This document shows, piece after piece, positions 4,009 through 55,823 of a stretch of DNA of 64,000 bases. The stretch comes from Aeromicrobium massiliense JC14 (lineage in GTDB: Bacteria > Actinomycetota > Actinomycetes > Propionibacteriales > Nocardioidaceae), in contig NZ_HE978636.1 of assembly GCF_000312105.1 (NCBI RefSeq), positions 523,642 to 587,641 of the forward strand. The letters run 5' to 3'. The notes under the pieces were generated by a model that saw only the letters and a list, made by a program, of their open reading frames with translations, had not been told where the DNA came from and ran no database searches. A program made the translations under genes and the position numbers. Numbering within the stretch: the first letter of the stretch is position 1; every line of letters starts with the position of its first letter.

Positions 4009-5273
4009 GAGCGCGGCTCCAGGACCTCGGGCAGCAGGCCGTGCAGCGCCTTGGGCAGGCGCACCGAGCCGTCGGCCTGCTGGCCGTTCTCGAGCAGCGC
4101 GATGATCGTGCGGGTCATGGCGCACAGGGTGCCGTTGAGCGTCGAGACGTGGCGCGGGCCCTCGTCGGTGCGCTCGCGGATGTCGAGGCGGCGGGCCTGG
4201 AACTGCGTACAGTTGGACGCCGAGGAGACCTCGCGGTACTTGCCCTGGGTGGGGATCCAGGCCTCGCAGTCGAACTTGCGGATGGCCGACAGGCCGAGGT
4301 CGCCGGCGGCGACGTCGACGACCCGGTAGGGCAGCTCGAGCGCGTCCAGCCAGGCGCGCTCCCAGCCGAGCAGCCGCTCGTGCTCGGCCGCGGCCTCCTC
4401 GGGCGTCGTGTAGACGAACATCTCCACCTTGTCGAACCAGTGCACCCGGAAGATCCCCCGCGTGTCCTTGCCGTACGAGCCTGCCTCGCGCCGGTAGCAG
4501 GGGCTGAACGCGGCGTAGCGTCGCGGCAACGATCCGGCGTCCAGGATCTCGTCGGAGTGGTACGCCGCGAGCGGCACCTCGCTGGTGCCCACGAGGTACA
4601 GGTCGTCCTTGGGCAGGTAGTAGACGTCGTCGGCGGCCTGGCCGAGGAAGCCGGTGCCCTCCATGGCGCGCGGCTTGACCAGCGCTGGCGGGATCATCGG
4701 CGTGAAGCCCCACTCGGCGGCCTTGCTCATCGCCAGCTGGGTGAGCGCCAGCTCGAGCTGGGCGCCGACGCCGGTCAGGTAGTAGAAGCGCGCGCCGGAG
4801 ACCTTCGCGCCGCGCTCGACGTCGAAGGCGCCGAGCGCCTCGCCGAGCTCGAGGTGGTCCTTGGGCTCGAAGCCCTCGGCGGCGAAGTCGCGCGGGGTGC
4901 CGACGGTGTCGAGCACGACGAAGTCGTCCTCGCCGCCCTCGGGCGCCTGCTCGGACGCCAGGTTCGGCAGGCTCTTGAGCAGCCGCTCGAACGCCTGGGC
5001 CGCCTCGCCCTGCGCCGCCTCGGCCTCCTTCACCTGCGCCGACAGCGCCTTGGTGCGGGCCAGCAGCTCGGCCTTCTCGTCGCCGGACGCCTTCGCGACC
5101 AGCTTGCCGATCGACTTCTGCTCGGCGCGGACCGCCTCGTACGCGGCGATCGAGGAGCGGCGTCGCTCGTCGGCGGCGACGAGCTCGTCGACGAGGCTCT
5201 CGGACTCCCCACGACGTCGCTGGGCGGCACGCAGGAGGTCGGGGTCTTCACGCAGGAGCTTGGCGTCGATCAC
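4005..5273 (-). CDS. serS: Seryl-tRNA synthetase
   Basis: A 422-residue class II aminoacyl-tRNA synthetase that charges tRNA-Ser in the cytosol. The N-terminal arm ([22 protein letters not shown], then a long charged coiled coil to about residue 105) is the tRNA-binding hairpin. The catalytic core shows motif 2 ([18 protein letters not shown], with [12 protein letters not shown]) and motif 3 near the C-terminus ([22 protein letters not shown]). The length is typical of bacterial SerRS. The ATG at 5273 opens the unit, and its stop overlaps the HAD start. Confidence 0.98.
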
Positions 5274-44288: not shown

Positions 44289-45014
44289 TCAGGCGAGGTG
44301 GCGGGCCAGGAAGGCCCGCGTGCGCTCGTCCACCGGCGCGGTGAAGATCTGCTCCGGCGGGCCCTGCTCGACGATGCGTCCGTCGGCCAGGAAGACGACC
44401 CGGTCGGCGACCTCGCGGCAAAAGTCCATCTCGTGCGTGGCCATGACGATCGTCTGGCCGGACGCCGCCAGGTCGCGGACGACCTGCAGCACCTCGGCGA
44501 CGAGCATCGGGTCGAGCGCGCTGGTGACCTCGTCGAGCAGCAGGAGCTCGGGGTCCATGGCGACGGCGCGCACGAGCGCGACCCGCTGCTGCTGCCCGCC
44601 GGACAGCGCGTCCGGGTGGGCCGGCGCCCGGTCGGCCAGCCCGACCCGCTCGAGCAGCTCGCGGGCCCGCGCCTCGCTCTCGCGCCGGCCGCGGCCCAGC
44701 ACCTTGCGCTGGCCGAGCGTCACGTTGCTCAGCACCGACAGGTGCGGGAACAGGTTGTAGGCCTGGAAGACGACGCCGATGCGCCGCCGGGTCGCGTCGA
44801 CGTCCAGCGCCGGGTCGGTGAGCTCGACGTCGCCGAGCCAGATGTCGCCGTCGTCGGCCACCTCGAGCAGGTCCAGGCAGCGCAGCAGGGTCGACTTGCC
44901 CGAGCCGGAGGCACCGATGAGGCAGACCACCTCGCCGGCGGCGACCTCGAGGTCGACGTCGTCCAGCACGACCTTGTCGCCGAACGTCTTGCGCAGCCCC
45001 GTCACGCGCAGCAT
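44289..45014 (-). CDS. Polar amino acid ABC transporter ATP-binding protein
   Basis: 241 residues, GlnQ/HisP type. Walker A GASGSGKSTLLRCLDLL, Q-loop VFQAYNLFPHLSVLSNV, signature LSGGQQQRVALVRAVAM, Walker B LLLLDEVTSALDP and H-loop ATHEMDF are all intact. The FNLFPH-like and EVTSALDP sequences mark the polar amino acid class. The ATG shares its A with the permease stop (TGATG). It is the last gene of a binding protein-permease-ATPase operon. Confidence 0.95.
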   Translation of the reverse strand: MLRVTGLRKTFGDKVVLDDVDLEVAAGEVVCLIGASGSGKSTLLRCLDLLEVADDGDIWLGDVELTDPALDVDATRRRIGVVFQAYNLFPHLSVLSNVTLGQRKVLGRGRRESEARARELLERVGLADRAPAHPDALSGGQQQRVALVRAVAMDPELLLLDEVTSALDPMLVAEVLQVVRDLAASGQTIVMATHEMDFCREVADRVVFLADGRIVEQGPPEQIFTAPVDERTRAFLARHLA

Positions 45015-45862
45015 CAGGCACCCGCCTCCCGGCGCATCTGGCGGATCATGAACCAGTCGGTGATCCGCGTGACGAACACCGTCGTGACCACGAAGAACAG
45101 CGCGGCCACGCACAGCGACGTGAAGTTGAAGGTCTCGGCCTGGTAGACGCTCGCCGCGCGCAGGCCCTCGACGAGGCCGATCGTCGACAGCAGCGCGGTG
45201 TCCTTCTGCAGCGAGACGAAGTCGTTGACCAGCGGTGGCGTCACGCGGCGCAGCGCCTGGGGCAGGACGACGTGGCGCAGCGTCGCGCCGTACGACATGC
45301 CAAGCGCGCGGCCGCTGGCCCACTGCGTCGGGTGGACGGAGAGGATGCCCGCCCGCACCACCTCGGCCACGTAGGCGCCGTAGCTCAGCGCGAGGGCGAT
45401 GGCCCCGAGCCAGAACAGGCTCGTGGGCATGCCGGCCAGCCCGAGCGCCGGGAAGCCGAAGCCGACCAGCAGCACGACCAGGATGGTCGGCACGCTGCGG
45501 AACAGGTCGGTGTAGACCGTTGCCAGGATCTTGAACGGCGCCATGAACGGCGCCGGCACCACGCGCACGACCGCGACCAGCACGGCCACGACGAGCACCA
45601 GCACCTCGACCAGCAGGAACATCCGGATGTTCAGCCAGAACGCGTCGCGGACGAGCGGGAAGCTCTCGCGCGCGTGGCCGGCGTCGAAGTACGTCCGCTG
45701 CACCCGCTCCCAGCCGGGCGAGGTGACGACGGCGGCGGCCAGTCCCCCGAGGACCACCACCGTCGAGAGCACGCCCGCGAGCGCCCGGCGCCGGGTGCGA
45801 CGCCGGCGGAAGGCGTCGCGCTCGGCCTGCCGGGCGCTCGGGACGTGCGGGACGGCCGTCAC
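45014..45862 (-). CDS. Polar amino acid ABC transporter permease
   Basis: 282 residues with about five membrane helices. The EAA loop GRALGMSYGATLRHVVLPQALRRVTPPLVNDFVSLQKDTAL is the HisM/GlnP type, and TDLFRSVPTILVVLLVGFG is the family's TM1-2 signature. A long basic cytoplasmic N-terminus (about 28 residues) precedes the first helix. The GTG at 45862 overlaps the binding-protein stop by four bases. A single permease gene implies a homodimeric channel. Confidence 0.94.
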   Translation of the reverse strand: MTAVPHVPSARQAERDAFRRRRTRRRALAGVLSTVVVLGGLAAAVVTSPGWERVQRTYFDAGHARESFPLVRDAFWLNIRMFLLVEVLVLVVAVLVAVVRVVPAPFMAPFKILATVYTDLFRSVPTILVVLLVGFGFPALGLAGMPTSLFWLGAIALALSYGAYVAEVVRAGILSVHPTQWASGRALGMSYGATLRHVVLPQALRRVTPPLVNDFVSLQKDTALLSTIGLVEGLRAASVYQAETFNFTSLCVAALFFVVTTVFVTRITDWFMIRQMRREAGA

Positions 45863-46737
45863 TTCAGGACGGGCGCGTTCGCCGACTCGGCGAGCCAGGT
45901 CTGCTCGAGGTCGGCCAGCGTGCCGTCCTCGCGCAGGCCCTCGACGGCGTCGTCGACGCACGAGGTGAGCTTGCTGCCCTTCTCCAGCAGCAGGCCGAAC
46001 GCCTCGGTGGCGTCGCCCTCGACCTGGAACTGGCCGGCGATGACCGAGCCGTCGATCTCGGCGGCGGTCAGGTAGAACGCGCTGGGCAGGTCGGCCACGA
46101 TGCCGTCGACCTGGCCGTTGCGAAGGGCCTCGGCGGCCTTGGTCGTGTCGTCGTAGACCCGCGGCTGCTTGGCGCCCTCGATCTGGCCGATCGCCTTGAG
46201 CGAGGTGGTGCCGATCTGCGCGCCGAGCTGGGCGTCGGCGAGGTCGGCCAGGCTCTTCGCGTCGGCGAACGGCGAGTCCTCGAGCACGATGACCGCCTGC
46301 GCGGCCTCGTAGTACGGCGCGCTGAAGTCGACCGCCTGCTTGCGCTCGTCGGTGATCGAGATCTGGTTGATGTCGACGTCGAACTGCTTCTCGCCGGGCT
46401 GGTAGGCGGTGTTGAACGGCACCTTCGTCCAGACGACCGCGTCCTTGTCGAAGCCGAGCCGGTCGGCGACGGCGTAGGCGACCGCGCTCTCGAAGCCCTT
46501 GCCGTTGGCCGGGTCGTTGTCGGAGAACCACGGCTCGTAGGCCGGGTCGTCGGTGGCGATCGTGAGGCTGCCCTTCTTCACCGTGGGCAGGGAGTCGACC
46601 GAGCACGCGGCCGAGGAGTCGGCGGACGACGCGGAGTCGGACTCCTCGTCGGCCGGGGCGCAGGCCGCGGCGAGCAGCAGGGCGGAGGCGGCGACGAGGC
46701 CGCCGAGCGAGCGGGGGAGGGACGTCATGGCCGTCAT
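45859..46737 (-). CDS. Amino acid ABC transporter substrate-binding lipoprotein
   Basis: 292 residues, SBP family 3. Signal ending LLLAAAC gives a lipidated cysteine near residue 26, then a serine/acidic linker. The core has GSLTIATDDPAYEPWF, GFESAVAYAVADRLGF, FDVDINQISITDERKQAVDFSAPYYEAAQAVIV and LRNGQVDGIVADLPSAFYL. It should bind a polar amino acid outside the cell. ATG 46737 or ATG 46728 are both possible starts. First gene of the three-gene operon. Confidence 0.94.
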   Translation of the reverse strand: MTAMTSLPRSLGGLVAASALLLAAACAPADEESDSASSADSSAACSVDSLPTVKKGSLTIATDDPAYEPWFSDNDPANGKGFESAVAYAVADRLGFDKDAVVWTKVPFNTAYQPGEKQFDVDINQISITDERKQAVDFSAPYYEAAQAVIVLEDSPFADAKSLADLADAQLGAQIGTTSLKAIGQIEGAKQPRVYDDTTKAAEALRNGQVDGIVADLPSAFYLTAAEIDGSVIAGQFQVEGDATEAFGLLLEKGSKLTSCVDDAVEGLREDGTLADLEQTWLAESANAPVLK

Positions 46738-47453: not shown

Positions 47454-48626
47454 GTGATCCCGGCTCCGTCCCGCCCCGCCCGCTCCCGCCTCGTGCCGAT
47501 GCGTCCGCGCGACCCGCGCGAGCCCGCCCGCACCGCCAGCGAGCTGGAGCTGTTCTTCGACCTGGTCTTCGTCGTAGCGGTGAGCGTCGCCTCGGTGCAG
47601 CTGCACCACGCGCTGGCCGAGGGGCACGTCGTCGACGGCGTCGTCAGCTACCTCATGGTGTTCTTCTCCATCTGGTGGGCGTGGATGAACTTCACCTGGT
47701 TCGCCACCGCCTTCGACACCGACGACTGGCTGTACCGCGTGCTGACGCTGGTGCAGATGGCCGGCGTGCTGGTGTTGGCCGCCGGGGTCGAGGACACCTT
47801 CGGCGCCGAGCGCGACTACACCGTCGTGACGCTGGGCTACGTCCTCATGCGGGTCGCTCTGGTCGCCCAGTGGCTGCGCGCGGCGCACGGCGACGCGTCC
47901 CTGCGCCGCACCACGCTCGTATATGCCGCCGGCATCAGCACCGTCCAGGTGCTGTGGCTGCTGCGGCTGGCGCTGCCGGAGTCGGTGGCGACCGCCTCGT
48001 TCCTCGTCCTCGTCGCGGCCGAGCTGGCGGTGCCGGTGGTGGCCGAGCGGGTCGGTCCCACGCCCTGGCACCCGCACCACGTGGCCGAGCGGTACGGGCT
48101 GTTCACGCTCATCGTCCTGGGCGAGAGCGTGCTGGCGTCGGCGAACGCGTTCATCGGCGCGCTGCACGACGACGCCGAGCTGGTGCCGCTGGTCACCACG
48201 GCGGTGCTGACGTTCGTCGTGACCGCCGCGCTGTGGTGGACGTACTTCTGGGCGCCGCACCACCGGACGATCGACGCCGGCGGGGCGCTGCGCTACGGCT
48301 ACGCCCACTACCTCGTCTTCGCCGCGGCCGGCGCGTTCTCGGCGGGCGTGGAGGTCGAGATCGACGCCCTGAGCGGGCACGGCGAGCTGTCGCAGGCGGC
48401 GGCCGCGTGGACGGTCTCGGTGCCGGTCGCCGTGTTCGTGCTGGGCATCTGGGCGATCGCGCTGCGTCCGGTCGGCGACCGCGTGGTCAACCTGGTGGTG
48501 CCGGTCGCGGCGCTCGTCGTGCTGGCCGACGCGCTCGTGCCCGTGCCGCTGCTCGTCACCGCGGTCGTCATGGTCGGCGTCGTGTTCGTCCTCGTGCGCC
48601 GCCCGGCTGAGGTCGCCGTCGCTTGA
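47454..48626 (+). CDS. Low-temperature-requirement A (LtrA) family membrane protein
   Basis: 390 residues with ten or more membrane helices. ELFFDLVFVVAVS near residue 31 and RYGLFTLIVLGESVLAS near 220 are the two hallmark LtrA segments, with WWAWMNFTWFATAFDTDD between. The family is named from a Listeria cold-sensitivity phenotype; its biochemical activity is unknown. The start is GTG 47454, leaderless. The arginine/proline-rich first 28 residues are cytoplasmic. Confidence 0.92.
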   Translation: MIPAPSRPARSRLVPMRPRDPREPARTASELELFFDLVFVVAVSVASVQLHHALAEGHVVDGVVSYLMVFFSIWWAWMNFTWFATAFDTDDWLYRVLTLVQMAGVLVLAAGVEDTFGAERDYTVVTLGYVLMRVALVAQWLRAAHGDASLRRTTLVYAAGISTVQVLWLLRLALPESVATASFLVLVAAELAVPVVAERVGPTPWHPHHVAERYGLFTLIVLGESVLASANAFIGALHDDAELVPLVTTAVLTFVVTAALWWTYFWAPHHRTIDAGGALRYGYAHYLVFAAAGAFSAGVEVEIDALSGHGELSQAAAAWTVSVPVAVFVLGIWAIALRPVGDRVVNLVVPVAALVVLADALVPVPLLVTAVVMVGVVFVLVRRPAEVAVA

Positions 48627-48675
48627 CGCCCGTGCTCGAGCACGGCGCCGATTCGCCGCGGGCGACCGCTATCGT

Positions 48676-48702
48676 GGAATACGGAGGGGCACCCCGGTTT
48701 CC
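48676..48702. promoter_or_regulatory. Operator-like dyad before the tetR gene (48736)
   Basis: GGAATACGGAGG and CCCGGTTTCC flank GGCAC, an imperfect dyad similar to the two operators in front of the MFS gene. It supports autoregulation by the TetR protein. Confidence 0.5.
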
Positions 48703-48735
48703 GCCGGACCCTGTGTCGTGAAGGGAGCACCGGCC

Positions 48736-49311
48736 GTGACGGCACCGAGCGGACGAGCACGCCGCAGCCGCGCCGACTTCGAGCGCAACCGCTCGGAGAT
48801 CGTGACGCAGGCGGAGCGTCACTTCGCCGAGTCGGGTGTGGGCGCCTCGCTCGAGGCGGTGGCCCGCGACGCCGGGGTCGGCTCGGCCACCCTGTACCGA
48901 CACTTCCCGACCCGGGACGCCCTGCTCGCCGAGGTGCTCCAGCGCCGGACCGACACGCTCGAGGCGTCCAAGGCGAGGATCGAGCAGCTCGACGACCCGG
49001 ACGCGGCGCTCGAGGCGTGGCTGGCGGCGCTCGAGGAGTACTTCGGCGCGTTCGACGGGCTGTCCGGCCCGTTGCGCAGCGCGCTCGCGCAGGAGCACAA
49101 CCCGCTCACCCTGACCTGCATCGGGTTCATCCACGGGACCGACCACTTCCTGCGGGCCGCGCAGCAGCACGGCTCCGCACGGCAGGACGTCCGGGGACGG
49201 GACCTCTTCCTGGCGGTGCTCGCGACGAGCTGGGTGCGCGGAGCGTCCCTGGCGGACGACGAGGCCGCAGGCCGGCTGCGCGGCCTGATGCGCGACGGCT
49301 ACCGCCGCTGA
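48736..49311 (+). CDS. TetR/AcrR-family transcriptional regulator of the flavin-monooxygenase module
   Basis: 191 residues. The helix-turn-helix is clear (RSEIVTQAERHFAESGVGASLEAVARDAGVGSATLYRHFPTRDALLAEVLQRR), followed by a helical domain ending SWVRGASLADDEAAGRLRGLM, the SCO4008/KstR2-like C-terminal type. GTG 48736 is chosen because AAGGGAG sits eight bases upstream; GTG 48718 is the alternative. It lies 170 bases before, and in line with, an exporter and flavin monooxygenase genes, and matching operators flank both. Confidence 0.9.
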   Translation: MTAPSGRARRSRADFERNRSEIVTQAERHFAESGVGASLEAVARDAGVGSATLYRHFPTRDALLAEVLQRRTDTLEASKARIEQLDDPDAALEAWLAALEEYFGAFDGLSGPLRSALAQEHNPLTLTCIGFIHGTDHFLRAAQQHGSARQDVRGRDLFLAVLATSWVRGASLADDEAAGRLRGLMRDGYRR

Positions 49312-49400
49312 CCTGGTCGGGTCGCCATCGCGGCCCGCCGCGTCCGGTGCTCCCGTGAGCCGGCCCCGGCTGTCTCGCTGATCACATCGGCGTCGCGTCG

Positions 49401-49428
49401 TTGCGAAACGGAGGCACCCCCTGTTTAA
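49401..49428 (+). promoter_or_regulatory. Promoter of the MFS-flavin operon with operator 1
   Basis: TTGCGA (49401-49406), 16 bases, TTTAAT (49423-49428). Operator 1 (49405-49427; arms GAAACGGAGG and CCCCTGTTTA around CACC) lies across the spacer. Confidence 0.6.
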
Positions 49429-49430
49429 TC

Positions 49431-49453
49431 GAAACGGGGGCATCCCCCGTTTC
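49431..49453. promoter_or_regulatory. Operator 2, perfect palindrome
   Basis: GAAACGGGGG and CCCCCGTTTC are perfect 10-base arms around CAT, starting 26 bases after operator 1, so the two sites lie on nearly the same side of the helix. Just downstream of the promoter: a repressor position. Confidence 0.7.
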
Positions 49454-49480
49454 ATCCCCACCTCGAGAGCGAGCACCGCC

Positions 49481-51016
49481 GTGTCATCGGACCTGTCACC
49501 TTCCGCCGCACCTGACCGGCCCGGACGCCCCGGCCCGGACGGCCCCCGCACCGAGGCGCGCGCGCACGGCGACCGGCTGGCCCCGGGCGACGGGCTGATG
49601 ATCGGCCTGCTCATGGGGTCGACGTTCGTGGTGCTGCTCAACGAGATGCTGCTCGGCGTGGCACTGCCCACCCTGATCCAGGACCTGGGGATCAGCGCCT
49701 CGACCGGCCAGTGGCTGACCACGGGCTACCTGCTCACCCTGGCCGTCCTCATCCCCGCGACCGGGTTCGTGATGCGCAAGCTCCACCTGCGCACGATCTT
49801 CCTGGCCTCGATGACCCTGTTCACGGTGGGCACGGCGATGGCTGCCCTGGCTCCCGGGTTCGGGCTGCTCCTCGCCGGCCGCCTGGTGCAGGCGGCGGGC
49901 ACCGCGGTGTTCCTGCCGCTGCTGATGACGACGGTCATGCGGCTGGTGCCCGAGGGTCGCCGCGGCCGGTTCATGGCGTTCGTCGTGGTGGTCACGGCGG
50001 CCGCGCCGGCTCTCGGACCGGCAGTGTCCGGGCTGGTCCTGTCGCAGCTGGGCTGGCGATGGCTGTTCATCCTCATGCTGCCGATCGCGCTGCTCTCGCT
50101 GGCGCTCGGCGCCGCCAAGCTGCGCAACATCACGCGTCCCGAGCCGGTGCGGCTCGACGCCCTGTCCCTGCTCCTGTCCGCCGTCGGCTTCGGCGCACTG
50201 GTCTACGGCCTGGCCAGCATCGGCGAGTCGGCCTCGGGCCACACCCCCGTGCCGCCGTACGTCCCCCTGGCGATCGGCCTGCTGGGTGTCGCTGCGTTCG
50301 TGCTGCGCCAGGTCGCGCTGCAGGAGCGGGAGACGCTCCTGCTGGACGTGCGGATCTTCGCCGTCCGCTCCTTCTCGGTCCCCCTCCTGGTCATGCTGAT
50401 GCTGACGATGACCGCCTTCGGCACCGGGATCGTGCTTCCGCTCGTGCTCACCGGCGTCCACGGGCTGAGCTCGCTGCAGGTCGGCCTCTTCCTGGTGCCC
50501 GGCGGGGTGGCGATCTCGGTGGTCTCGGCGATCGGCGGACGCTTCTACGACCGCGTCGGTCCGCGACCGCTGGTCGTCCCCGGTGCGGTGATCGTGGCCG
50601 CGACCCTGTGGTTCCTGGCGCAGGTCAGCGCCACCACCTCGGTCTGGACGCTCCTGGCCGTCTACATCGTGATGATCGTCGGCCAGGCGCTCATGTGGAG
50701 CCCGCTGACGACGGCGGCGCTCTCCGCCCTGCCGAGCACCCTGTACCCGCACGGCAGTGCCGCGTTCAGCGCCGTCCAGCAGCTCGGCGGCGCCGCGGGC
50801 ACCGCGATCCTCGTCTCCGCGTACACGTTCGGGGCCGGCGCCGGCGGCTCCGGGACGCTCGACGTGGCCCAGTCCGTCGACGCCGCCCGGGCGGCGTTCA
50901 CGGCCGCGGCGGTCATCGCGTGCGTCTCGGCCGTGGCGAGCCTGCTCGTCCGCCGCGCACCCCTCGCGGACGAGTCCGAGACCGAGCACGAGGTCGCCGA
51001 GCACGCGTCCGCCTGA
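49481..51016 (+). CDS. MFS drug/metabolite exporter (DHA2, 14-helix type)
   Basis: 511 residues with 14 predicted membrane helices after a 37-residue polar, proline-rich N-terminus. GVALPTLIQDLGISASTGQWLTTGYLLTLAVLIPATGFVMRKL and GRLVQAAGTAVFLPLLMTTVMRLVPEGRRGRFMAF (motifs A and C region) mark the DHA2 class, including EmrB/QacA-like proton antiporters. It should export a hydrophobic compound or toxic product. The start is GTG 49481. It is first in a likely operon with the flavin reductase and monooxygenase. Confidence 0.92.
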   Translation: MSSDLSPSAAPDRPGRPGPDGPRTEARAHGDRLAPGDGLMIGLLMGSTFVVLLNEMLLGVALPTLIQDLGISASTGQWLTTGYLLTLAVLIPATGFVMRKLHLRTIFLASMTLFTVGTAMAALAPGFGLLLAGRLVQAAGTAVFLPLLMTTVMRLVPEGRRGRFMAFVVVVTAAAPALGPAVSGLVLSQLGWRWLFILMLPIALLSLALGAAKLRNITRPEPVRLDALSLLLSAVGFGALVYGLASIGESASGHTPVPPYVPLAIGLLGVAAFVLRQVALQERETLLLDVRIFAVRSFSVPLLVMLMLTMTAFGTGIVLPLVLTGVHGLSSLQVGLFLVPGGVAISVVSAIGGRFYDRVGPRPLVVPGAVIVAATLWFLAQVSATTSVWTLLAVYIVMIVGQALMWSPLTTAALSALPSTLYPHGSAAFSAVQQLGGAAGTAILVSAYTFGAGAGGSGTLDVAQSVDAARAAFTAAAVIACVSAVASLLVRRAPLADESETEHEVAEHASA

Positions 51017-51060
51017 CCGCGTCGCACCCCGACCGAAGCCACACCAGATCGGAGATCGCC

Positions 51061-51570
51061 ATGCCGGACCCCGTCACCCTCGGCGGCGGCGCCGCGAGCA
51101 CCGTCACCCCACGACGGATGCGGGACGCCCTGGCCGGGTACCCCACCGGGCTCGTGCTCGTCGCCGGCACGGACGACGGCGCGACCGTCGGCATGCTGGC
51201 CAGCTCGTTCACCTCGGTCTCGCTCGAGCCGCCGCTGGTCTCGCTCGCCTTCGCACGCACCTCGACCACCTGGCCGAGGCTGCAGCGCGCCGACCGATGG
51301 GGCCTCAGCGTGCTGAGCCAGCAGCAGGCGGACCTCCTCCCGCTGCTGGCCCGCCCGGCCGACGTCCGCTTCGACGACGTCGGGACGTCCGAGCGGCACG
51401 GCGGACTCGTCCTGCCCGACGCCGCACTCACCCTCACGGTCACCCGGCACGCCGAGGTCGAGGCCGGCGACCACGTCCTGGCCCTGCTCCGGGTCCTCGA
51501 CGTGCACCGGGACGACGCCAGGCCCCCCGTGGTCGTCCACGACCGGCGCGCCCGCCACCTCGCCGCCTGA
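51061..51570 (+). CDS. Flavin reductase (NADH:FMN oxidoreductase domain)
   Basis: 169 residues, flavin-reductase-like FMN-binding split barrel. RRMRDALAGYPTGLVLVAGTDDG, GMLASSFTSVSLEPPLVSLAFARTSTTWPRL, WGLSVLSQQQ and the late H-x-L-A-L-L-R-V strand are diagnostic. It supplies reduced FMN to the monooxygenase encoded 47 bases downstream. A single ATG is well placed after GGAG. Confidence 0.9.
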   Translation: MPDPVTLGGGAASTVTPRRMRDALAGYPTGLVLVAGTDDGATVGMLASSFTSVSLEPPLVSLAFARTSTTWPRLQRADRWGLSVLSQQQADLLPLLARPADVRFDDVGTSERHGGLVLPDAALTLTVTRHAEVEAGDHVLALLRVLDVHRDDARPPVVVHDRRARHLAA

Positions 51571-51617
51571 CCCCGCCTGCCCACAGCTCCGCACCTCTGC
51601 GACGAAGGACCCGCACC

Positions 51618-52946
51618 ATGACCGACCGCACGATGATCCTCGGGATGCACCTGGGGACCGGCTACGGCTCCCAGGCCCTGTCCTGGCGCGCCCCGGGCGT
51701 CGACCCCGGCGCCTACACCGACTTCGACGCGCAGGTGCGCCACGCCCGCGCCGCCGAGCGGGGCAAGTTCGCGTTCCTGTTCCTGCCCGACTCCCTCGCC
51801 GTCACCCGCGGCATCGAGCGCGAGGTGCCGCAGGCCACCTTGGAGCCGATGCTGACCCTGGCGGCGATCGCCCGCGCCACCGAGCGCATCGGCCTGGTCG
51901 CCACCGGCTCCACCACCTTCAACGAGCCGTACAACGTCGCGCGCCAGTTCAAGACGCTCGACGTGATGAGCCACGGCCGGGCGGGGTGGAACGCCGTCAC
52001 GACCAGCGACCCGAACGCCGCGGCGAACTTCGGCCAGACCATCGCCGACCGGCCGGAACGGTACGGACGCGCCCACGAGGTGATCCAGGTCGTCCAGGCA
52101 CTCTGGGGCAGCTGGCAGGAGGACGCCTGGGTCAAGGACCCGGCGACCGGCACGTTCGTCGACCCCGACAAGCTGCGTCCCGTGAACCTGCAGGGGGCGC
52201 ACGTCGCCGCCCGCGGACCGCTGCCGATCCCGCCGTCGGAGCAGGGACAGCCGGTCATCTTCTCCGCCGGGGGCGGCGCCTACGGCCTGACGCTCGCCGG
52301 TCGCTACGCCAGCGGCGTCATCGGCGCGGCGTTCACCATCGAGGACGCCCGCGCGCAGCGTGACGCCGCCCGGGAGGCGGCCCGCCAGGCCGGTCGCGAC
52401 CCCGACGAGGTCAAGTACTTCGCCGGCGTCATGCCGGCCCTGGGCACGTCCGTCCGTGACGCGCTCGACCGGCGCATGGCGCTCAACGGGGACCTCTTCG
52501 CGAGCCGGGTGCCGTACCTCGGTCTCATGCTCGGGCTCTCCCTCGACGCCGGCCAGCTGGACCAGCCGCTGACCCCCGCCCAGCTCGGTGCGGCGCGGGC
52601 CGGATCCGGTGACCCGCGGGCCGCGCGGGCCCTCGAGGTGGCGCGGGAGGGCTGGACGCTCCGCGAGGTGCTGGCCCACGGCGTCATCGACTACCACCCC
52701 ACGCCCGTCGGACCGCCCGCCGTCGTCGCCGATCACCTGCAGGCGTGGTTCGACGCCGAGGCGGTGGACGGGTTCTGGGTCTCCCCCGACGTGAACGCGA
52801 CCGACATCAACACCTTCGTCGACGAGGTCGTCCCGCTCCTGCAGGACCGCGGGCTGTACCCGGCCGACTACGTGGGGACGACGCTGCGCGAGCACCTGGA
52901 CGTGCCACATCAGTACGGGATCGACCCGCGCATCGTCACGCACTAG
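51618..52946 (+). CDS. FMNH2-dependent class C flavin monooxygenase (NtaA/SnaA/DszA-like)
   Basis: 442 residues, bacterial-luciferase-like TIM barrel. The NtaA/SnaA/DszA subfamily features are seen: GTGYGSQALSWRAPGVDPGAYTDFDAQVRHARAAERGKFAFLFLPDS near the start, ARQFKTLDVMSHGRAGWNAVTTSDPNAAANFG, RYGRAHEVIQVVQALWGSW and SEQGQPVIFSAGGGAYGLTLAGRYA. It oxidises a sulfur-, nitrogen- or carbon-containing substrate using FMNH2 from its partner reductase. Relatives desulfurise organosulfur compounds or attack chelators such as NTA; the substrate here is not predictable. Confidence 0.92.
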   Translation: MTDRTMILGMHLGTGYGSQALSWRAPGVDPGAYTDFDAQVRHARAAERGKFAFLFLPDSLAVTRGIEREVPQATLEPMLTLAAIARATERIGLVATGSTTFNEPYNVARQFKTLDVMSHGRAGWNAVTTSDPNAAANFGQTIADRPERYGRAHEVIQVVQALWGSWQEDAWVKDPATGTFVDPDKLRPVNLQGAHVAARGPLPIPPSEQGQPVIFSAGGGAYGLTLAGRYASGVIGAAFTIEDARAQRDAAREAARQAGRDPDEVKYFAGVMPALGTSVRDALDRRMALNGDLFASRVPYLGLMLGLSLDAGQLDQPLTPAQLGAARAGSGDPRAARALEVAREGWTLREVLAHGVIDYHPTPVGPPAVVADHLQAWFDAEAVDGFWVSPDVNATDINTFVDEVVPLLQDRGLYPADYVGTTLREHLDVPHQYGIDPRIVTH

Positions 52947-52967
52947 CCTCCGCCGGCGCTCGCTGGC

Positions 52968-52998
52968 TGCAACCTCTTGCACATGCAACTCGTTGCAT
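52968..52998 (+). promoter_or_regulatory. Tandem dyads in the padR promoter
   Basis: TGCAA-CCTC-TTGCA (52968-52981) is followed 16 bases later by ATGCAA-CTCG-TTGCAT (52983-52998). They overlap a TTGCAC -35 (52977-52982) and precede TAGGTT (53001-53006). These TGCA-type dyads resemble PadR operators. Confidence 0.6.
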
Positions 52999-53014
52999 AG
53001 TAGGTTCTCGCGGC

Positions 53015-53551
53015 ATGGCCCTGGAGCACGCGATCCTCGTGTCCCTCGCGGAACGGTCGGCCACCGGCTACGACCTCGCGCGGCGCTTCGACGCGTCCAT
53101 CGGGCACTTCTGGAAGGCCACCCACCAGCAGGTCTACAAGGTGCTGGCCCGCATGCAGGAGCAGGGCTGGGTGGACGTCGAGCTGGTCACCCAGGCCGGG
53201 CGTCCCGACCGCAAGGTGCACCGCATCACCGACGCCGGACGCGCCGAGCTGCGGCGCTGGTCGGCCGAGCCGATCGGGCCGGAGGTGCTGCGCAGCAGCT
53301 TCGCCGTCGCCCTGCGCGGGCTGCCGAACGTCGACCAGGACGCCCTGCTGGCCCACGTCCGCGCGCGGCGCGACGAGCACGCGGCGACGCTGGAGGCGTA
53401 CGAGAAGGACATGGCGCGCACGTTCCCCGACCCGGACGCGCTCGACGAGGCCGCGCTCGGCCCCTACCTCGTGCTGCGCGGCGGCATCCTCACCGAGGCC
53501 GCTGGGCTTCAGTGGTGCGAGGAGACGCTCGCCCGCCTTGAGGCGCGATGA
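53015..53551 (+). CDS. PadR-family transcriptional regulator
   Basis: 178 residues. The winged helix (MALEHAILVSLAERSATGYDLARRFDASIGHFWKATHQQVYKVLARMQEQGWVDVELVTQAGRPDRKVHRITDAGRAELRRW) is the PadR-type start, and a C-terminal Vir domain completes the family (about 95-175). ATG 53015 is eight bases after TAGGTT, so the mRNA would have almost no leader. It probably represses itself through the tandem dyads. Its end overlaps the convergent small membrane gene by 43 bases. No clear target gene is adjacent. Confidence 0.9.
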   Translation: MALEHAILVSLAERSATGYDLARRFDASIGHFWKATHQQVYKVLARMQEQGWVDVELVTQAGRPDRKVHRITDAGRAELRRWSAEPIGPEVLRSSFAVALRGLPNVDQDALLAHVRARRDEHAATLEAYEKDMARTFPDPDALDEAALGPYLVLRGGILTEAAGLQWCEETLARLEAR

Positions 53552-53775
53552 GCCAGCACCGCGCGAGCGCCCACGACGAGCACGCCGACGCCGATCGAGA
53601 ACGCGGTGACGATGAGCACCGCGTGCACCCAGAAGAACGCCGTCGGGTCACTCGACCAGTGCTCGCCCGCCCACGCCCGGTCGTCGTCCGCGATCGCCTT
53701 GGCGAAGCGCGGCCAGATGACCATGTTGAACAGCCCGGCCAGCACCAGGAACCACGCCGACGTCCTCGAGATCAC
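53509..53775 (-). CDS. SCO4848-type small membrane protein
   Basis: 88 residues with two membrane helices (SAWFLVLAGLFNMVIWPRF and AFFWVHAVLIVTAFSIGVGVLVVGARAV). FAKAIADDDRAWAG and DPTAFFWVHAVL match the SCO4848 family, which is widespread in actinobacteria and without known function. The GTG start at 53775 is leaderless (CATACT, six bases, GTG). Only 23 bases separate it from the divergent FadH-like start, and its 3' end overlaps padR. Confidence 0.75.
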   Translation of the reverse strand: MISRTSAWFLVLAGLFNMVIWPRFAKAIADDDRAWAGEHWSSDPTAFFWVHAVLIVTAFSIGVGVLVVGARAVLAHRASRRASVSSHH

Positions 53776-53798
53776 GCCCCCAGTATGAGGAGCACCGC

Positions 53799-55823
53799 AT
53801 GACCACGAACCACCCGCACCTGCTCAGCCCGATCACCATCGGCGCCACCACGCTGCGCAACCGCGTGATCATGGGGTCGATGCACGTCGGCCTGGAGGAC
53901 AAGGCCAAGCACCTGCCCGACCTCGCGGCCTACTTCGCCGAGCGGGCCAAGGGCGGCGTGGCGCTGTCGGTCACCGGCGGCTTCGCCCCCAGCTGGCGCG
54001 GCTGGCTGCTGCCGTTCGGCTCGCAGATGACGTCCCGTCGGCACGCGGACTCGCACAAGGTCGTGACCGACGCCGTCCACGAGCACGACGGCAAGATCGC
54101 GATGCAGCTGCTTCACGCCGGCCGCTACGGCTACAGCCCGCTCAAGCACACCGTCTCGGACGTCCGCAGCCCGATCACGCCGTTCCGGAACCGCACGATG
54201 AGCAGCCGCGACGTCGACCGCACCGCCACCGCGTTCGCCAAGTCCGCCGCGCTCGCGCTGCGCGGCGGCTACGACGGCGTCGAGATCATGGGCTCCGAGG
54301 GCTACCTGATCAACCAGTTCCTGGCCGCCCGCACCAACACCCGCACCGACGCGTGGGGCGGCACCGCGGAGAAGCGCATGCGGTTCCCGGTCGAGGTCGT
54401 CCGCCGCACCCGCGAGCTGCTCGGCGACGACGCGTTCGTCATGTACCGGATGAGCCTGCTCGACCTGGTCGACGACGCGCAGAGCTGGGACGAGACGGTC
54501 GAGCTCGCGCACCGGTTGGAGGAGGCCGGCGTCTCGGTGTTCAACACCGGCATCGGCTGGCACGAGGCCCGCATCCCCACGATCGTCACGTCCGTGCCGC
54601 GCGCAGCGTTCAGCTGGGTCACCGGCAAGCTGCGCGCCGAGGTGGGCGTGCCCGTGGTGGCGTCCAACCGCATCAACGACCCGGACGTGGCCGAGCGCAT
54701 CCTGGCCGACGGCGAGGCCGACCTCGTCTCGATGGCGCGCCCGCTGCTGGCCGACCCGGAGTTCGTCCGCAAGACGGCCGAGGGCCGCACCGACGAGATC
54801 AACACCTGCATCGCCTGCAACCAGGCCTGCCTGGACCACACGTTCAGCAACCAGCGGGCGTCCTGCCTGGTCAACCCGCGCGCCGGGCACGAGCGCGAGC
54901 TCGTGCTGCTGCCGACGCGCCGCGCGAAGACGGTCGCCGTCGTCGGCGGCGGCCCCGCCGGGCTCGCGGCGGCGACCGAGCTGGCCGGGCGGGGCCACAC
55001 GGTCGAGCTGTTCGAGGCGTCCGAGGAGCTCGGCGGGCAGTTCCGCCTGGCCATGCGCATCCCCGGCAAGGAGGAGTTCGCCGAGACGCTGCGCTACTTC
55101 TCCCGCCGCCTGGAGGTCACCGGCGTCAAGGTGCACCTCGGACGTCGCGTGGAGGCCGGCGACCTGACCGGCTTCGACGAGGTCGTCGTCGCCACCGGCG
55201 TCACCCCGCGCCTGCCCGACCTGCCGGGCGTCGACCACCCCAAGGTCGTCTCGTACGCCGACGTCGTCGCCGGACGGGTCGAGGCCGGGCAGAAGGTCGC
55301 GGTCATGGGCGCCGGCGGCATCGGCTTCGACGTCGCCGAGCTGCTGCTGCACGAGCCGGGCGAGTCGCTGGAGCACTGGATGACCCGCTGGGGCGTCACC
55401 GACCCCGCGCTCGCGCCCGGCGGCCTGGCCACCAAGGTGCGCGAGACGCCGCGCCGCGAGGTCTTCCTGCTGCAGCGCAAGACGACCCCGCACGGCGCCG
55501 GGCTCGGCAAGACGTCCGGCTGGGTCCACCGCACCACGCTGCGCGACTCGGGCGTCACCTTCGTGGGCGGTGTCCGGTACGACCGGGTGGACGACGCCGG
55601 GCTGCACGTCACGATCGGCGCCGACGGCGACTCCCCCGAGTCGCGCGTGCTCGACGTCGACACCGTGGTGCTGTGCACGGGCCAGGAGTCGGTGCGCGAG
55701 CTGGTCGACCCGCTGACCGAGGCCGGGGTCGTCACCCACGTCATCGGCGGCGCCGAGGTCGCGGCCGAGCTGGACGCCAAGCGGGCCATCCGCCAGGCCA
55801 CCGAGCTCGCCGCCCGCATCTGA
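53799..55823 (+). CDS. fadH: 2,4-dienoyl-CoA reductase-like FMN/FAD/4Fe-4S oxidoreductase
   Basis: 674 residues. An old-yellow-enzyme-like FMN barrel (about 1-330) has QLLHAGRYGY and GYLINQFLAARTNTRTDAWGG. The 4Fe-4S cluster cysteines C337, C340, C344 and C356 have the family spacing (CxxCxxxC-x11-C). The FAD/NAD domains include VAVVGGGPAGLAAATELAGRGHTVELFEA and KVAVMGAGGIGFDVAELL. The layout equals E. coli FadH, which reduces dienoyl-CoA in unsaturated fatty-acid oxidation. Other members act on other enones. GAGGAG lies six bases before the ATG. Confidence 0.85.
   Translation: MTTNHPHLLSPITIGATTLRNRVIMGSMHVGLEDKAKHLPDLAAYFAERAKGGVALSVTGGFAPSWRGWLLPFGSQMTSRRHADSHKVVTDAVHEHDGKIAMQLLHAGRYGYSPLKHTVSDVRSPITPFRNRTMSSRDVDRTATAFAKSAALALRGGYDGVEIMGSEGYLINQFLAARTNTRTDAWGGTAEKRMRFPVEVVRRTRELLGDDAFVMYRMSLLDLVDDAQSWDETVELAHRLEEAGVSVFNTGIGWHEARIPTIVTSVPRAAFSWVTGKLRAEVGVPVVASNRINDPDVAERILADGEADLVSMARPLLADPEFVRKTAEGRTDEINTCIACNQACLDHTFSNQRASCLVNPRAGHERELVLLPTRRAKTVAVVGGGPAGLAAATELAGRGHTVELFEASEELGGQFRLAMRIPGKEEFAETLRYFSRRLEVTGVKVHLGRRVEAGDLTGFDEVVVATGVTPRLPDLPGVDHPKVVSYADVVAGRVEAGQKVAVMGAGGIGFDVAELLLHEPGESLEHWMTRWGVTDPALAPGGLATKVRETPRREVFLLQRKTTPHGAGLGKTSGWVHRTTLRDSGVTFVGGVRYDRVDDAGLHVTIGADGDSPESRVLDVDTVVLCTGQESVRELVDPLTEAGVVTHVIGGAEVAAELDAKRAIRQATELAARI

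Follow-up and report, generated by a model that had tools for sequence, protein, structure and literature searches.

What function is served by a locus in which a TetR-type repressor gene is followed, in the same direction, by genes for an exporter, a flavin reductase and a luciferase-like monooxygenase, and do these genes form one regulated unit? The locus lies in a 64 kb stretch of 73% GC DNA (C1:523642-587641 of a 3.32 Mb genome), which was analysed as a whole and is referred to here as the window. A first, sequence-only reading had placed four co-directional genes there, and all four were present at that place, on the forward (+) strand. The tetR gene occupies 48736-49311 (+), with a GTG start at 48736 that agrees with relatives; a GTG at 48718 is also possible. 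Its product carries both a TetR_N domain (PF00440, 42 bits versus a cut-off of 24) and an SbtR-like C-terminal domain (PF21597, 46.6 bits versus 27). The next gene (49481-51016, +) encodes a DHA2 family MFS protein (TIGR00711, 264.5 bits versus a cut-off of 230.2; MFS_1 was also matched), and as a member of this family it is a putative exporter. It is followed by a flavin reductase gene (51061-51570, +; PF01613, 90.2 bits versus 27) and by the gene of an NtaA/DmoA-type luciferase-like monooxygenase (51618-52946, +; TIGR03860, 388.9 bits versus a cut-off of 279.7, and PF00296). The monooxygenase fell far short of the cut-offs of the substrate-specific models that it matched, such as SfnG (53.2 of 383 bits), SsuD (31.3 of 518) and RutA (38.3 of 498). 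The tetR and exporter genes are separated by 169 bases, exporter and reductase by 44, and reductase and monooxygenase by 47, which places a partner flavin reductase next to the monooxygenase. Between these genes, terminator-like sites were not found, and the only matches fell inside the monooxygenase gene.

The earlier reading had described a perfect palindrome and an imperfect copy 26 bases apart upstream of the exporter gene, and this description was correct. The palindrome, S2 (49431-49453, +), reads GAAACGGGGG-cat-CCCCCGTTTC, and S1 (49405-49426, +), upstream of it at a spacing of 26 bases, is 85% identical to S2 over 26 nt. The two predicted operators do not flank the exporter promoter, as had been proposed. 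The promoter, TTGCGA-N17-TTTAAT (49401-49429, +; 9 of 12 consensus matches), has its -35 element at 49401-49406 and its -10 element at 49424-49429; S1 fills the 17-base spacer, and S2 begins two positions past the final base of the -10 element. The score of this promoter was equalled by none of 500 random 43-base stretches, and a stricter scan, in which A was required at -10 position 2, listed no promoter within 48500-54000. A third dyad was said to precede tetR. A related operator-like site, S3 (48681-48700, +), does lie 35 bases upstream of the probable start of tetR, and it is weak, being one base longer than S1 and S2 and a poor palindrome. Allowing up to three mismatches, the pattern common to S1 and S2 was unique to these two sites in the window (0 expected), and it was not found elsewhere in the 3.32 Mb genome.

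Palindromy as such was rejected as evidence for an operator, because inverted repeats with perfect 10-base arms are common here (16 in the window, with overlaps counted separately, versus 0-9 in ten simulated windows) and because a palindrome-pair test blind to the motif was unconvincing. That test gave p=0.46 for the exporter promoter and p=0.89 for that of tetR, neither of them significant, and it reached p<0.05 at 3 of 22 promoters, one of which (L050) did not involve the motif. The evidence for the predicted operators is the conservation of their motif, not their symmetry.

Conservation was evaluated with a matrix of nine sites, all drawn from the relatives L033, L034 and L036 and none from the window. 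When this matrix was run over the 64 kb, S2 ranked first, S1 second and S3 only fourth. All matrix sites had been chosen by eye from the loci, and a result is independent only for a locus that was left out. A matrix from 24 sites outside the family placed S1 sixth in the window, and S2 was absent from the best 12 positions; since the operator has diverged between clades, only the family matrix is informative for the window. Matrices that each left out one locus were then applied to 16 loci, including the window and excluding L035 and L038, and the best site fell within 250 bp of the start of tetR or a target gene in 15 of the 16, as did the second-best site, also in 15 of 16. In L049 the best site was 871 bp away and the next two were at tetR, and in L044 just the best site was close. 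The four best sites in L064, found with a matrix built without that locus, lay between its divergent monooxygenase and exporter genes or before its tetR. Clear sites precede tetR in L033 and L036, at the place where the window has the weak S3, and operators stand directly 5' of the monooxygenase gene in L035, L040 and L064. Judged by this conservation, both predicted operators at the exporter promoter, S1 and S2, are strongly supported.

The position of the operator within the promoter recurred as well. At the exporter gene it occupies the spacer in L033 (TTGGAA-17-TTTACT), in L034 (GGAACA-17-TTTAAT), and in L036 and L064 (TTGACA-17); on the monooxygenase side it does so in L036, L040 and L064. 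Seven tetR promoters (TTGACC or TTAACC-17; L039, L040, L041, L042, L043, L045 and L049) have an operator in the spacer, and that of L049 is weak, as 6% of random stretches score equally. A spacer-embedded operator was absent or unclear in L034 (in the tetR direction), L044, L046, L047, L048 and L050. Further operator-like sites were seen before a second TetR-like start in L044 (9674-9725), before a zinc-type dehydrogenase-like gene in L042 (9287-9307), and about 0.9 kb before tetR in L049 (5467-5517).

How widely are this repressor and its neighbouring genes distributed? A TetR homologue is present in 5 of 149 genomes of the family (E up to 1e-25), 5 of 391 of the order (E up to 1e-40) and 15 of 393 of the class (E up to 1e-35), the own genome being counted each time, and at these cut-offs the homologues span seven families (f1, f2, f5, f18, f19, f20 and f45). 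Gene company was examined around 17 TetR homologues, among which L038 has an identity of only 36%, and around the monooxygenase of genome G029, making 18 places; two monooxygenase places and two TetR places were added later. The five closest loci, namely the window, L033, L034, L036 and L064, have the helix GSATLYRHFPTR in common. The earlier reading had suggested looking for the four genes together in related genomes, and within this group they do recur. The exporter is found in 5 of 5 loci (73-79% identity to that of the window) and the monooxygenase in 5 of 5 (86, 73 and 61%, with a piece of only 199 aa in L036), while the flavin reductase, and hence the whole four-gene set, is found in 3 of 5 (the window, L033 at 47% and L064 at 35%). 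An FNO/STEAP-like gene is present in four of the five, the window being without it. The short monooxygenase of L036 (genome G092, 4139-4738) retains mainly the C-terminal third of the protein, and the operators, exporter and TetR are kept there.

Over the 16 relatives' TetR loci among the first 18 places (L038 left out), an FNO/STEAP-like gene was the most frequent partner (10 loci), followed by a monooxygenase (9 loci, partial in L036, L043 and L048), a nitroreductase (6), a DHA2-like MFS gene (5) and a flavin reductase (2); presence was scored within fetched stretches of 9-19 kb and is not proof of co-regulation. The fetched stretch of L045 held none of the partner genes that were sought. 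A flavin reductase also adjoins the monooxygenase in L033, L035, L056, L057 and L064, and it was not found beside the monooxygenase in L034, L036, L037, L040, L044, L048 or L049. Viewed from the enzyme, the TetR group was present in 7 of the 8 genomes with the monooxygenase among the 393 class genomes (Fisher 1.9e-10, uncorrected for kinship). Neither TetR nor operators were found in the stretches fetched around G029, G396 C134 and G410 C23, which are three of the ten close monooxygenase places; at two of these three, genes for monooxygenase and flavin reductase stand end to end. At the G029 place (L037, 3964-8034), the monooxygenase (85%), an FNO-like gene and a DHA2 protein lie side by side without TetR. 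A MerR-like gene upstream, called by eye and matched by no model, is perhaps a swapped regulator.

From the genes and their families, the conserved operators, the promoter geometry and the recurring gene company, we infer that the locus is a ligand-inducible operon for detoxification by export and oxidation, and we lean towards this as the probable function. In the absence of ligand, TetR would occupy both S1, which lies between the -35 and -10 elements, and S2, which lies at the start site, and would thereby block RNA polymerase and silence a single transcript encoding the exporter, the flavin reductase and the monooxygenase; the weaker S3 would probably let it limit its own gene as well. On binding a small molecule, hydrophobic or redox-active, TetR would be released, the DHA2 pump would then expel the compound, and the flavin reductase would feed reduced FMN to the monooxygenase, which would oxidise the same compound that the pump expels. 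Transcription as an operon is supported by the gaps of 44 and 47 bases with no terminator-like site between the genes, and the model as a whole by the family matches, by the leave-one-out sites in 15 of 16 loci and by the spacer operator at five exporter promoters. The company of the five closest loci and the presence of TetR in 7 of 8 monooxygenase genomes argue for it too, and so does G029, which keeps monooxygenase, FNO-like gene and DHA2 protein together even without TetR. Support for the earlier idea that TetR, exporter and two-component monooxygenase act as one regulated unit comes from the conserved operators, from the geometry of the promoters and from co-occurrence in relatives. Detoxification is favoured because of the exporter family and of the nitroreductase and FNO/STEAP-like company of the regulator. 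The model is weakened by the three of ten close monooxygenase places that have no TetR and no operators, by the missing flavin reductase in two of the five closest loci, by the motif-blind palindrome test, which was not significant, and by the importers near tetR and in L034, which hint at sulfur nutrition.

These two importers, cystine-like in the window and for sulfate in L034, are what keeps alive a nutritional role, in which growth would draw on an organosulfur compound (or a chelate) opened by the monooxygenase pair, with the MFS protein moving substrate or product; they leave the organosulfur substrate of the earlier reading a possibility. In the window, genes for LtrA and DUF4442 proteins separate tetR from an amino-acid ABC importer about 2 kb upstream (44289-46737, -). 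The top model for its ATPase was L-cystine TcyN, below the cut-off (272 bits versus 406), and that for its binding protein was lysine/arginine/ornithine, followed by cystine, all below cut-off. In L034, a sulfate ABC ATPase (405 bits, above the cut-off of 343) and a CysT-like permease piece lie about 2.4 kb beyond the monooxygenase. Among the nearest relatives of solved structure are YtnJ, DszA and a protein that bears the name nitrilotriacetate monooxygenase. In Bacillus subtilis, ytnJ sits with a cystine importer. However, the importer of the window is on the opposite strand with two genes between, and differs from the sulfate importer of L034; moreover, the transporter under the operators belongs to an exporter family, and the partners of the regulator elsewhere are nitroreductases and FNO/STEAP-like reductases. 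We regard scavenging as unlikely.

The same partners could instead point to a redox-stress circuit, in which TetR would sense quinone-like or nitro-type electrophiles and the enzymes would serve flavin and electrophile balance, not one substrate. The frequency of nitroreductases (6 of 16) and FNO/STEAP-like reductases (10 of 16) in relatives' loci and the F420 biosynthesis gene cofD in the genome are consistent with this, but the window's operon has neither a nitroreductase nor an FNO/STEAP-like gene, and an exporter with a dedicated oxygenase suggests a defined compound, so that such a circuit seems rather doubtful to us. That TetR governs just itself and the exporter, with reductase and monooxygenase as a neighbouring pair under separate control, is improbable: no site before 51061 or 51618 appeared among the window's best 12 positions with any of the three matrices and close monooxygenases occur without TetR in three places, but the gaps are 44 and 47 bases, terminator-like matches are confined to the monooxygenase gene, and the monooxygenase genes of L035, L040 and L064 have operators immediately in front of them.

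A broader proposition, to which we give roughly even weight, is that the locus represents one branch of a widespread TetR regulon with its own operator family and an exchangeable redox toolbox (luciferase-like monooxygenase, FNO/STEAP-like reductase, nitroreductase, flavin reductase and DHA2 pump), serving export and inactivation of one inducer class. In relatives from seven families, the TetR group is accompanied by tandem operators, all of one type, and by redox genes that vary from locus to locus. Half-sites of CGGAGG, CGGAGA or CGGGGG would track the TetR subclade under this proposition, and the operator would often lie in the promoter spacer. GSAT helices went with CGGGGG in 19 of 22 half-sites versus 0 of 58, an association confounded with clade, and L064, added later, agrees. 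A one-residue specificity rule, by which position 6 of the half-site would be A with HFPN and G with HFPT (16 of 18 half-sites versus 1 of 62), was rejected, as the later locus L065 has HFPT with GAGA sites. The count had also taken in L035, where the sites may be those of another TetR, present as a fragment close to the monooxygenase.

The FNO-like genes raised the question of the enzyme's cofactor. F420 was considered for the monooxygenase, as FNO-like genes recur and cofD is in the genome, and is not favoured, since the name of the subfamily marks it as FMN-dependent and a flavin reductase gene lies alongside. The own genome has cofD at C1:85203-86138 and two FNO-like paralogues without an operator (C1:904613-905299 and C1:1170272-1170940). 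Three FNO-like proteins scanned against NCBIfam matched no model at 1e-10, and for the one protein searched the nearest solved relatives include STEAP metalloreductases.

Is such a combination new? LmrB is a DHA2 pump. By the title of a 2007 study by Hirooka, the lmrAB and yxaGH operons of B. subtilis are reportedly under LmrA and YxaF (= QdoR). The TetR-type QdoR represses a quercetin dioxygenase gene via two operators and its own gene via one, and is released by quercetin (PMC8481877). The layout of this flavonoid regulon (lmrAB, yxaGH/qdoI, qdoR), with two operators at the oxidative target and one at the repressor gene, resembles that predicted for the window, where export would likewise be joined to oxidative destruction in one regulon; gene layout and operators agree with such control. 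Unlike the B. subtilis case, where a quercetin dioxygenase, separate operons and two repressors are involved, the oxidising enzyme here is a luciferase-like monooxygenase, and the locus may work like the LmrA/QdoR regulon without being a member of it. The claim that export with oxidation under a single repressor is not a described system was therefore too strong, and such pairing under TetR-type control is known in kind. What is new is that oxidation falls to a two-component luciferase-like monooxygenase, that an operator family has its place in the promoter spacer, and that the redox partners can be exchanged; a search of open-licence papers recognised none on the locus, the operator or the regulator group.

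The partner reductases of NtaA, DszA and SnaA are NtaB, DszD and SnaB. The window shares with these pairs a monooxygenase of the same subfamily beside a flavin reductase, and differs from them in the link to an exporter and a particular type of TetR. The pqrAB genes of Streptomyces coelicolor are a TetR-DHA2 drug efflux pair with no oxygenase or reductase known in the unit; the order of tetR and DHA2 exporter is alike, whereas here an oxygenase and a reductase are added. Operators, promoter and targets are now defined enough to ask which compound opens the repressor. Knowing the inducer would yield a natural biosensor, reveal on what class of substrate an orphan branch of the NtaA/DmoA monooxygenases acts, and tell whether a cell uses export together with flavin-dependent oxidation against the same compound.

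Downstream of the operon are genes for DUF1697, DJ-1/PfpI and SIR2 proteins, and a FadH/OYE-type flavoprotein is encoded at 53799-55823, for which the nearest model was a mycofactocin-linked OYE (399 bits versus a cut-off of 793). A PadR gene (53015-53551) begins 68 bases after the operon, with the perfect palindrome ATGCAACTCGTTGCAT just upstream of it at 52983-52998 (0 expected in shuffles), and is probably a separate, self-controlled regulator.
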